Shown: one piece after another, positions 3,850 through 5,939 of the stretch
Layout: every line of letters begins with the position of its first letter
Numbering within the stretch: position 1 is the stretch's first letter
Source of the DNA: Trueperaceae bacterium
Lineage (GTDB): Bacteria; Deinococcota; Deinococci; Deinococcales; Trueperaceae
Assembly (NCBI GenBank): GCA_011390735.1
Contig: JAABRV010000002.1
Location: 1-46,284 of the forward strand
Direction of reading: 5' to 3'
DNA: 46,284 nt
Program-made: the position numbers and the translations under genes
The notes under the pieces: generated by a model
Told to the model about the DNA's origin: nothing
The model's input: the letters and a program-made list of their open reading frames with translations, nothing else
Database searches by the model: none

Positions 3850-4401
3850 TCAGGGCGCCAGCGTCGGGGCGACGACGAGCCGCGCGTAGGCGGTCGCCAT
3901 GACCTCCGCGGGGTAGGGCATGTCGTGGTCGAGCCACCAGCCCACGAGCGCCAGCGATGCCGCGGCCAGGTGATGGGCGGCCAGGTCGACGGGCACGCCC
4001 GGCGGCGTCCGGAAGCTGGGGCTGGCGAGCACGCGGCTGCACACCGCCGCACGCAGGTCGCGCTCGAGGGTCCCGCTGCGCTGCGCGTCGAACAGCACCC
4101 GCAGCGCCGTCGCGTGGCCGGCGACGTAGTCGAAGAGATCGCGGCCGGCGTCCTCGAGCCGACCCGCCTCGGCGCTGGGCTGGAGGAGGTCGGCGAGCTC
4201 GCCGACGATGCCGCCCAGGACGTCGAGCAGCAGTTCCTCCTTGCTCTGGTAGTGGCGGAAGAAGGTCGCGTAGCCGACGTCGGCGACCGAGGTGAGCTCG
4301 CGGATCGTCAGGTCGGCGAAGGGGCGCTCCGCCGCGAGCTGCAGGAGTGCTCGCGCGAGGGCCTCGCGGGTGCGGCGCACGCGCCGGTCGAGGGCGGTCA
4401 T
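3850..4401 (-). CDS. TetR/AcrR-family transcriptional regulator
   Basis: This is a one-component repressor with an N-terminal helix-turn-helix and a ligand-sensing C-terminal domain. From the chosen start (MTALDRRVRRTREALARALLQ), the helix-turn-helix is DLTIRELTSVADVGYATFFRHYQSKEELL, about residues 30-59. It is followed by a TetR C-terminal helical region with AAASLALVGWWLDHDMPYP. The ORF track begins 13 codons earlier (4440). I prefer 4401 because TACCGT (4413-4408) lies 6 nt upstream, giving a leaderless start like many genes in this window. It faces the 4518-5939 gene pair across a long inverted repeat that overlaps both putative promoters. Autoregulation and control of that pair are therefore likely. 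The ligand is unknown. Confidence 0.92.
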   Translation of the reverse strand: MTALDRRVRRTREALARALLQLAAERPFADLTIRELTSVADVGYATFFRHYQSKEELLLDVLGGIVGELADLLQPSAEAGRLEDAGRDLFDYVAGHATALRVLFDAQRSGTLERDLRAAVCSRVLASPSFRTPPGVPVDLAAHHLAAASLALVGWWLDHDMPYPAEVMATAYARLVVAPTLAP

Positions 4402-4407
4402 CGGACG

Positions 4408-4413
4408 ACGGTA
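4408..4413 (-). promoter_or_regulatory. -10 box of the leaderless tetR gene
   Basis: The minus strand reads TACCGT, then CGTCCG, then the ATG at 4401, a 6-nt gap. A -35 at the usual distance (GTGTCT, 4436-4431) would fall inside the left arm of the operator, so bound repressor would block it. Confidence 0.55.
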
Positions 4414-4424
4414 CCCCACCACAC

Positions 4425-4466
4425 GTTTCGAGACACGCATATGTTACGCTACACGTGTCTCATAAC
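4425..4466. promoter_or_regulatory. Inverted-repeat operator between tetR and the kinase-like gene
   Basis: GTTTCGAGACACG (4425-4437) and CGTGTCTCATAAC (4454-4466) are inverted copies matching at 11 of 13 positions, with GAGACACG perfect. The 16-nt centre contains TACGCT (4445-4450), a plausible -10 for the rightward genes. The element lies in the only gap between divergent genes here and covers both promoters, as expected for a TetR operator. Confidence 0.7.
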
Positions 4467-4517
4467 GGTGCGGGCGCCGACCGCACGCACCCGCACGACC
4501 GGAAGGGCGTGGCGACG

Positions 4518-5240
4518 ATGTGGCCCGGCGTGGCGATCCTGTGGGCGTATGACCTCGCGGCGCTCCTGGCGCTGCCGGTGGCCGTCAAGTCCCTCACCGC
4601 GCTCCCCGACGAGGTGGTGCGGAAGTTCCAGCACGTCGCCTACGCGGGCTCGATCTTCCTCCTGCTCGGCCTCTTCGAGCGCTGGACCCAGGCGGTGGCG
4701 GCGGCGGCCGGCCTCGCGCTCTTCGCCTTCCCCGCGCTGTGGCTGTGGGAGCGTCATCCCAGTTACCGTCGGCTGCTGGCGGACCGCTCCCCCGGTGGGG
4801 GCGAGATGCGGCGGCAACTGCTGCTGGCGGTGATGGTGTTCTCGCTGCTGATCGCGTTCTTCTGGGGCCTGCTCGGCCCCGCGTGGCGGCCGGCGATCGC
4901 CGTCGCGGTCATGGTCTGGGGTCTCGGCGACGCGGCGGCGGCCCTGGTCGGCCGCTTCCTCGGGCGCCATCGCCTGGTCCATCGGCTCGTCGAGGGGGCC
5001 AAGACGCTGGAGGGCACGGCGGCGATGGTCGTCGCGGGCGCCATCGCGGCCTTCGTCACCCTCTTCCTCTACGGTGGGGCCTCGTGGTGGGTGAGCCTGC
5101 TCGCCGCGGTGTCGCTCGCGCCCCTCGCCGGCGCGGTGGAACTCGTCTCCCGCCGCGGGTCCGACACCGTCACGGTCCCTCTGGTGACCGCCGTGGGGCT
5201 TGTCCCGTGGTGGCTGCTCGTCGTCGCCTCGAGGGCCTAG
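4518..5240 (+). CDS. Dolichol/phytol-kinase-like integral membrane enzyme (CTP-dependent lipid kinase family)
   Basis: This is a 240-residue polytopic membrane protein of the SEC59 / VTE5 / phosphatidate-cytidylyltransferase-like group. These enzymes phosphorylate isoprenoid alcohols or diacylglycerol or move cytidylyl groups. The family signature is clear: ALPDEVVRKFQHVAYAGS near residue 28, VWGLGDAAAALVGRFLGRH near residue 135, EGAKTLEGTAAM near residue 160, and DTVTVPLVTAVGL near the end. I count about six or seven hydrophobic segments. The ATG at 4518 follows GGAAGGG with a 10-nt spacing; the track's upstream start at 4347 would run through the operator and tetR. Its TAG is immediately followed by the ATG of the next gene. 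The substrate cannot be read from sequence; an isoprenoid such as a carotenoid or menaquinone precursor is only a guess. Confidence 0.82.
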   Translation: MWPGVAILWAYDLAALLALPVAVKSLTALPDEVVRKFQHVAYAGSIFLLLGLFERWTQAVAAAAGLALFAFPALWLWERHPSYRRLLADRSPGGGEMRRQLLLAVMVFSLLIAFFWGLLGPAWRPAIAVAVMVWGLGDAAAALVGRFLGRHRLVHRLVEGAKTLEGTAAMVVAGAIAAFVTLFLYGGASWWVSLLAAVSLAPLAGAVELVSRRGSDTVTVPLVTAVGLVPWWLLVVASRA

Positions 5241-5939
5241 ATGCCCCGCCCGACGCCCGACCCGGACGCCCGCCGCGAGCGGACGCTGCTCGTCGCGTTG
5301 CTGCTGAGCGCGTGGGCGCCCTTCGTGACCGGTTGGGCCGTGGTCCTCAGCCAGTCGACCACCCAGGTCGCCGATTTCGTCCGCCGGACCGTCGAGCTCG
5401 GCGCCGTGACGGTCGCCTGGGCGGTCTTCCGGCGCCTTCGTCGGCGGGAGCCCGCGCCCGCCGAGGCGGCCCGGCTCGAGCGCATCGCGGCCTGGGCCGT
5501 GGGCGGCGCCCTGGCCATCTCCGGCGCTGTCACGCTCCTCCTCGCGCTCCGCCGCGGCGCCGGCTTCGCGCCCGGCGGCGACGTCCGCCTCGGCCTGCTC
5601 GTCGCCGTCCTCGGGCTGGCGACCAACGGCTGGTTCTGGCGGCGCTACGCGGTCTTCGCCCGCGAGCGTCCCGGGCGCCTCATGGAGGGTCAGCGCACGC
5701 TGTACCGCGCCAAGGTCGTCGTCGACGCCTGCGTGATCGCGGCGCTCGCGTCGGTGGCGCTCGCCCCCGGGCGGCCGGTGACCCGCTGGGTCGACCTGGC
5801 CGGGTCCGTCGCGGTCGCCCTCTACCTGCTGTGGAGCGCCGCGCGGGCGGTCGCGGGCGGCCGTGGGCCCGCCGCCGCCGTTGCGGCCCCCGCCGACACG
5901 GTCGCGCCGCAGGGCCACGCCGCGACGCGCCGAGGTTGA
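5241..5939 (+). CDS. CDF-like membrane protein with degenerate metal site
   Basis: This is a 232-residue protein with about five or six transmembrane segments and a topology like the membrane part of cation diffusion facilitators. The region [16 protein letters not shown] (near residue 33) lines up with the CDF second helix. [18 protein letters not shown] and [16 protein letters not shown] line up with the loop and the fifth helix. Of the four metal ligands of YiiP-type transporters, only the first Asp (ADFVRR) is clearly kept. The other second-helix Asp appears to be Arg, and the fifth-helix His is lost. There is no C-terminal metal-binding domain; the tail is an Ala/Pro/Arg-rich stretch. 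It begins directly after the stop of the kinase-like gene, so the two form an operon under the TetR regulator. It may transport something other than zinc, or be a helper subunit. Confidence 0.55.

Follow-up and report, generated by a model that had tools for sequence, protein, structure and literature searches.

Two adjoining membrane-protein genes, here called kin and cdf, are shown by a comparison of their carriers to be inherited as a unit, in fixed order, across four bacterial phyla, and the neighbourhoods of the pair show that its local regulator differs from lineage to lineage. On balance, we favour the reading that the window, the whole 46,284-nucleotide stretch of Trueperaceae DNA that was analysed, holds one copy of a widespread and self-contained, ligand-inducible two-protein membrane module composed of a CTP-dependent lipid-alcohol kinase and a non-metal CDF protein.

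The tetR-kin-cdf locus and its candidate operator

An earlier note on this DNA had described a TetR gene facing two membrane-protein genes across a 42-bp inverted repeat; the coordinates of this arrangement were confirmed, with the repeat at 4425-4466. The gene tetR (3850..4401, minus strand) encodes a TetR-family repressor of 183 aa and is divergent from kin-cdf. Its start is at 4401, not at 4440, and M-x-ALDRR at this start is kept in close relatives. The product matches the Pfam models TetR_N (6.7e-9) and TetR_C_8 (3.2e-5), and orthologues with 65-93% identity adjoin kin-cdf in genera g1, g12 and g15. On the other side of the intergenic region, kin (4518..5240, plus strand) encodes a 240-aa membrane protein with eight helices, belonging to the SEC59/DGK1/VTE5/CdsA (PF01148-like) superfamily. 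It is followed by cdf (5241..5939, plus strand), encoding a 232-aa CDF-fold protein with six helices and no C-terminal domain; the kin stop codon and the cdf start are not separated by any gap (5240/5241). Elsewhere in the window, positions 2082-3338 encode a class-V aminotransferase, the closest models of which (PhnW-AepZ, pyridoxamine-pyruvate and BhcA) are matched far below their cut-offs.

The candidate operator, GTTTCGAGACACG-N16-CGTGTCTCATAAC (4425..4466, no strand assigned), lies in the 116-bp intergenic region between the tetR start at 4401 and the kin start at 4518. Its 13-nt arms share 11 matches around a 16-nt spacer and contain perfect 8-bp cores, GAGACACG/CGTGTCTC, which delimit the conserved core at 4430-4461. 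When dinucleotide shuffles were made of the intergenic region alone, the 11/13 arm match was reached in 47 of 1000 shuffles and the perfect 8+8 core in 80 of 1000; judged on the window sequence alone, the repeat is thus marginal, barely better than chance. We count it as real because it is conserved across nine Trueperaceae loci. In all nine, which have the same TetR neighbour, the GAG...CTC frame occupies the same 32-bp span, with positions A2, G3, C5, T16, A17, G19, T21, T27, T31, C32 and G38 invariant. Within-sequence symmetry over these loci shows one raised axis, at 16.5, which is the predicted one (44% versus at most 37% elsewhere), and this symmetry was equalled in only 2 of 2000 column permutations. 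The half-site is best conserved in the form GTTaTGAG...CTCATAAC, the inner GACACG portion being variable, and the operator is imperfect in some relatives (loci L005, L010 and L011). The comparative evidence indicates that the repeat is a genuine conserved candidate operator.

In the window's genome, a 2.58-Mb metagenome-assembled genome that is about 81% complete, the inverted repeat occurs once when up to two mismatches are allowed. A looser version of the Trueperaceae operator pattern, run against 39 genomes of the family, returned only four unrelated matches and missed the true sites, because the half-sites are too variable for a pattern search. At the centre of the operator, a TAnGnT box facing kin is invariant in all nine loci; in the window it reads TACGCT (4445..4450, plus strand) and is plausible as the -10 box of a putative kin promoter. 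The window thus combines a TetR_N domain and divergent orientation with an inverted repeat that is conserved and lies where the promoters of both sides would be shared. The search for the trio and the repeat in relatives, proposed along with the earlier note, found both conserved in Trueperaceae, and the view of the repeat as a TetR operator gains support from the nine loci, binding being predicted.

Distribution and co-inheritance of kin and cdf

A scan of about 85,000 species genomes with a cdf profile yielded 144 relatives, and the best 80 of these 144 loci were analysed. The pair is carried by Bacillota, Chloroflexota, Spirochaetota and Deinococcota, and kin is located immediately upstream of cdf, on the same strand and in the same order, in 77 of these best 80 loci. 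At one further locus (L079), where no kin was seen, the contig end falls inside cdf. At another (L082), cdf is preceded by a short frame at 2886-3000 that looks like the C-terminal end of kin (MDTMTYPF...), which suggests a decayed kinase beside a still intact cdf. Locus L078 is a true exception, with cdf lacking an adjoining kin.

Both the 80 loci and a set of 25 genomes taken from them were chosen via cdf, so that kin may occur without cdf elsewhere. Each of the 25 genomes contains one strong kin (E<1e-84) and one strong cdf (E<1e-78), always adjoining; two cdf fragments in G367 and, in four of the genomes, weaker kin paralogues were set aside in this count. The weaker paralogues score 1e-17 or worse, leaving a wide gap to the strong kin, and by sequence they are other members of the superfamily. 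A search of 151 genomes starting from kin gave 15 strong matches, every one from the window's own family, and cdf adjoins kin in all 15; no kin without cdf was found by this search of Trueperaceae and relatives. Mirror-tree comparison of kin and cdf gave r = 0.91 over 80 pairs, as expected for linked genes, and no natural kin-cdf fusion was seen when the reading frames of the matches at the 80 loci were compared.

In the tree, the Trueperaceae with a divergent TetR gene fall in one well-supported clade, and genus g8 of the same family has distant kin-cdf versions without TetR, a pattern that suggests separate acquisitions. The earlier note dealt with the Trueperaceae version; the pair itself is a much wider unit, present in four phyla with differing regulators.

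Apart from the regulators and, at five loci, an Abhydrolase_3-type gene, no conserved metabolic neighbour of the pair was found, and none that would tie it to isoprenoids; the remaining neighbours are variable. In these five (L080, L090, L092, L104 and L106), genes of a single cluster lie just downstream of the pair, with an Abhydrolase_3 (esterase-type) domain in the two members scanned, and they may be part of the operon there. The L104 contig is binned as Kiritimatiellae, yet its kin and cdf proteins do not differ from the ones encoded by a metagenome-assembled genome of Clostridiaceae (L106). It is probably mis-binned, and Kiritimatiellota was left out of the carrier phyla for this reason. 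One Trueperaceae genome carries a second, diverged kin-cdf copy without TetR or operator (L025/L190, G026:C44), in which the kin start runs into the end of an apparent short-chain dehydrogenase frame. On a Thermoflexales contig (L054), two tandem kin-cdf pairs are found behind a single MarR gene.

Regulators attached to the pair

In Trueperaceae, the gene beside kin-cdf is the divergent TetR gene of the TetR_C_8 type. At three loci in Spirochaetota, it is a BetI-type TetR gene (TetR_C_6), directly upstream and co-directional, and at 30 loci in Bacillota and Chloroflexota a MarR gene abuts or overlaps kin. The MarR operons have a twin AGTTWACAWGTTAACTA palindrome upstream, flanking a TATAAT-like box, with copies approximating TAGTTTACAAGTTAACTA and GTTAACATGTTAACTA that are usually 32-33 bp apart. 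Allowing one mismatch, a search of 16 genomes for this palindrome found matches in 13, every one at the MarR-kin-cdf locus, while the reversed control pattern gave no match in the same genomes. Since all matches map to this locus, the MarR regulator appears to be dedicated to the kin-cdf operon.

In several lineages, namely Trueperaceae genus g8 and part of the Syntrophomonadaceae, no regulator adjoins the pair, and inducibility of kin-cdf is therefore not universal. That these two genes have repeatedly acquired private TetR or MarR switches argues more strongly than anything else for one inducible function. At one locus, an ArsR-type HTH gene is located downstream of the pair.

Kin is a probable lipid kinase

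The kin product of the window has no match in Pfam (E 1), NCBIfam or PADLOC, and a kin profile found no match among PDB sequences. CTP_transf_1 (PF01148) is matched by 3 of 59 kin family members (best 1.5e-7), and the window protein does not reach the curated PF01148 cut-off. Kin would accordingly represent a separate bacterial subfamily, PF01148-like but not filed as a member of PF01148. Its AF2 model (pLDDT 96.4) consists of eight long helices. In a Foldseek search, the top four PDB matches are all CdsA (4q2e/4q2g), with probabilities of 0.97-0.99 and weak scores (E 0.04-0.08, TM 0.37).

The superfamily residues R35 K36 H39, D138, G145, G149, E165 G166, E208, D216 and T219 are invariant in kin and its paralogues, which are 19-25% identical in this alignment and of which two match PF01148 weakly. 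Within the 59 family members, the signature residues are invariant or at least 90% conserved. The resulting motif set (RKxxH, GD...G, LEG, E, DTxT) is common to PF01148-like paralogues and, together with the CdsA fold matches, upholds the likeness to dolichol and phytol kinases that had been pointed out from the window sequence. PfPolK, a CTP-dependent farnesol/geranylgeraniol kinase with eight helices, has an R-K-x-x-H charged clamp formed by R29, K30 and H33 (PMC10849223), and the R76A and D177A substitutions each abolish the activity of yeast Dgk1 (PMC3486869). R35 and D138 of kin were equated with residues of these two enzymes by motif, not by computed alignment. We read kin as a probable CTP-dependent lipid-alcohol kinase because it shares the superfamily residues with its relatives and the RKxxH clamp and eight helices with PfPolK.

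Cdf combines a CDF fold with a charged core

Cdf matches Cation_efflux (PF01545) with an E value of 8.3e-9 and 35.9 bits, against a cut-off of 26.6. Its AF2 model (pLDDT 90.5) has six helices up to residue 208, followed by a low-confidence tail, and Foldseek places it with the zinc transporter ZnT1 (8xma; TM 0.68, E 7e-6). Sequence and predicted fold thus point to a genuine CDF member. By function, however, it is predicted not to be a CDF metal transporter. The 232-aa protein has no cytoplasmic C-terminal metal-binding domain, and the site A ligands ([HDN]xxxD in TM2 and [HD]xxxD in TM5) are absent. When cdf is set against a canonical CDF found in another member of the genus, the HxxxD motif in TM2 falls on R48xxxE52 and that in TM5 on K158xxxD162, with equal spacing from TM5 to the TM6 aspartate. 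A weak alignment to the YiiP profile shifts TM5 by one turn, placing L154 at the H and K158 at the D. In either TM5 register, cdf has no metal site.

D45, R48, R49, E52, K158, D162 and D185 are invariant in 70 sequences from four phyla, which bears out, for R48/E52 and K158/D162, the initial description of a CDF-like protein lacking most metal ligands. Because this charged core is conserved and the replacement residues are strongly constrained, the pattern speaks for a new function and against decay. The residues of the Na-CDF branch (Q150-D154 in TM5, Y44/S45 in TM2) are not found in cdf, which has R48 R49 and K158 D162, as judged from a motif comparison with MceT unaligned.

One distant genome (G283), considered as a carrier of the pair on account of a CDF match of 1e-30, was rejected, as the matching protein is a relative of full length that includes a C-terminal domain, and there is no kin. 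The protein (L150, G283:C106) is a 322-aa CDF with a cytoplasmic domain and an Arg in place of a TM2 metal ligand (NALRSSSEA), encoded in a genome without kin, and is possibly a stand-alone relative of the metal-free CDF type.

Proposed function and alternative explanations

At rest, one or two TetR dimers would occupy 4425-4466, thereby covering the tetR promoter as well as that of kin-cdf and silencing both. TetR would be released by a small ligand, either lipophilic or connected with membrane stress, upon which kin and cdf would be co-expressed. Kin would then phosphorylate a membrane lipid alcohol with CTP, as SEC59, VTE5/FOLK, PfPolK and Dgk1 do, the substrate most likely being an isoprenoid alcohol or polyprenol and possibly diacylglycerol. 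Cdf would not be a metal pump; with a buried Arg-Glu/Lys-Asp charge cluster in its CDF transport core, it would act on or with the substrate or product of the kinase, for instance by transferring the phospho-head-group from one leaflet to the other or by keeping hold of kin. Most characterised relatives of kin act on isoprenoid alcohols, and lipid-carrier or prenol salvage is our first choice for this reason. The role initially suggested for the pair, in isoprenoid salvage or membrane adaptation, would be compatible with these findings, which do not single out isoprenoids.

A bolder reading, put forward tentatively and in our judgement rather improbable, is that kin and cdf form an obligate heteromeric machine in which a CTP-driven lipid kinase is coupled to a CDF-fold translocase (flippase or scramblase) for a lipid or phospho-head-group. 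Its further elements are equally tentative: the metal site would have been turned into an Arg-Glu/Lys-Asp switch, and the machine would serve inducible lipid-carrier salvage under different repressors in each phylum.

The superfamily residues of kin are the same as those of Dgk1, and Abhydrolase_3 esterase-type genes lie downstream of the pair in some loci, as might be seen if kin were a Dgk1-like diacylglycerol kinase producing phosphatidic acid and cdf handled the anionic lipid. This is unlikely, however, given that prenol kinases have the kin clamp motif just as well and that diacylglycerol is normally phosphorylated by DgkA or DgkB in bacteria. We think it very unlikely that kin is a CdsA-like cytidylyltransferase and not a kinase, even though CdsA provides its only convincing structural neighbours in the PDB and PF01148 spans both activities. 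The RKxxH clamp, KTxEG motif, eight helices and 240-aa length of kin are prenol-kinase-like, and the CdsA matches are unspecific, because no kinase of the superfamily turned up among solved structures.

With respect to cdf, many loci come from metagenome-assembled genomes with sample names (CSSed, T1Sed, B1Sed) that we take to denote a soda-lake-type habitat. Such an origin would suit a salt or alkali membrane-adaptation module in which cdf is a monovalent-cation/proton antiporter, as has been proposed for MceT, and kin remodels phospholipids, but many other carriers are, by their record titles, from digester-type, gut or thermophile samples. MceT of Planococcus dechangensis is a published Na-CDF member that has altered ligands (Q150, D154), is active in Na+/H+ antiport and is encoded next to a TetR gene (PMC6440370). 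Its site is nevertheless acidic/polar (D41/Y44/Q150/D154) and its cytoplasmic domain is retained (PMC6440370), no kinase gene is described beside mceT, and the invariant Arg and Lys in the cdf site disfavour cation binding, making an antiporter comparably unlikely to a diacylglycerol kinase. That cdf is still a metal exporter, and kin-cdf a metal-stress operon, is highly improbable: the PF01545 match over threshold and the CDF fold would agree with it, but the site-A ligands are not kept, Arg and Lys are invariant, the C-terminal metal domain is missing, and the regulators are of the TetR and MarR types and not metal sensors, bar the single ArsR-type HTH. The likelihood of a chance neighbourhood with a chance inverted repeat, to which the marginal statistics of the window alone might have pointed, is negligible, this explanation being refuted by the finding that trio, repeat and kin-cdf pair are all conserved.

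The module of a lipid kinase and a non-metal CDF protein thus remains our preferred reading, and with it a gene pair of several phyla that has had no name is provided with a function open to testing. Isoprenoid-carrier kinases and flippases are targets of antibiotics and bottlenecks of cell-wall and glycan synthesis, and the known roles of the CDF family would be widened by a member whose fold has no metal site. If the heteromeric machine were real, it would be, to our knowledge, the first non-ion transport role of the CDF fold. Moreover, because the private operators are conserved, reporter fusions could be used to screen for the inducer directly.

Relation to known systems

Taken singly, kin and cdf are variants of known families. 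No published description of the pair or system was found in the open-access literature searched, subscription papers lying outside the search, and the combination of a lipid kinase and a metal-free CDF protein, controlled by private switches, is provisionally new as a system.

The TetR protein of the window has in common with FabR, MftR, FasR and other TetR repressors the TetR_N domain and the one-component repressor type; it differs from them in its target genes, and its NCBIfam matches are all far below cut-offs. Kin resembles SEC59, VTE5-FOLK, PfPolK and Dgk1 in the RKxxH, GD...G, LEG, E and DTxT motifs, in its eight helices and, going by weak matches, in a fold nearest to CdsA, and weak PF01148 matches in some members are a further link between the two. 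Unlike these kinases, it forms a distinct bacterial subfamily that has no Pfam or NCBIfam model of its own and adjoins a CDF-like gene; other superfamily members in kin-carrying genomes score 1e-17 or weaker against the kin profile.

MceT represents the sole published CDF branch that we found in which the ligands have changed and a new activity has been measured. Like cdf, it belongs to a branch with altered metal ligands and has a TetR gene alongside, but it differs in its cytoplasmic domain, in the residues D41/Y44/Q150/D154 and in having no kinase partner described. Finally, cdf shares with YiiP/FieF and ZnT1 the six-helix transport core and PF01545 membership, with a TM-score of 0.68 to ZnT1, whereas it is set apart from these transporters by the absence of a cytoplasmic domain, by the replacement of HxxxD/HxxxD with RxxxE/KxxxD and by its partner kinase gene.
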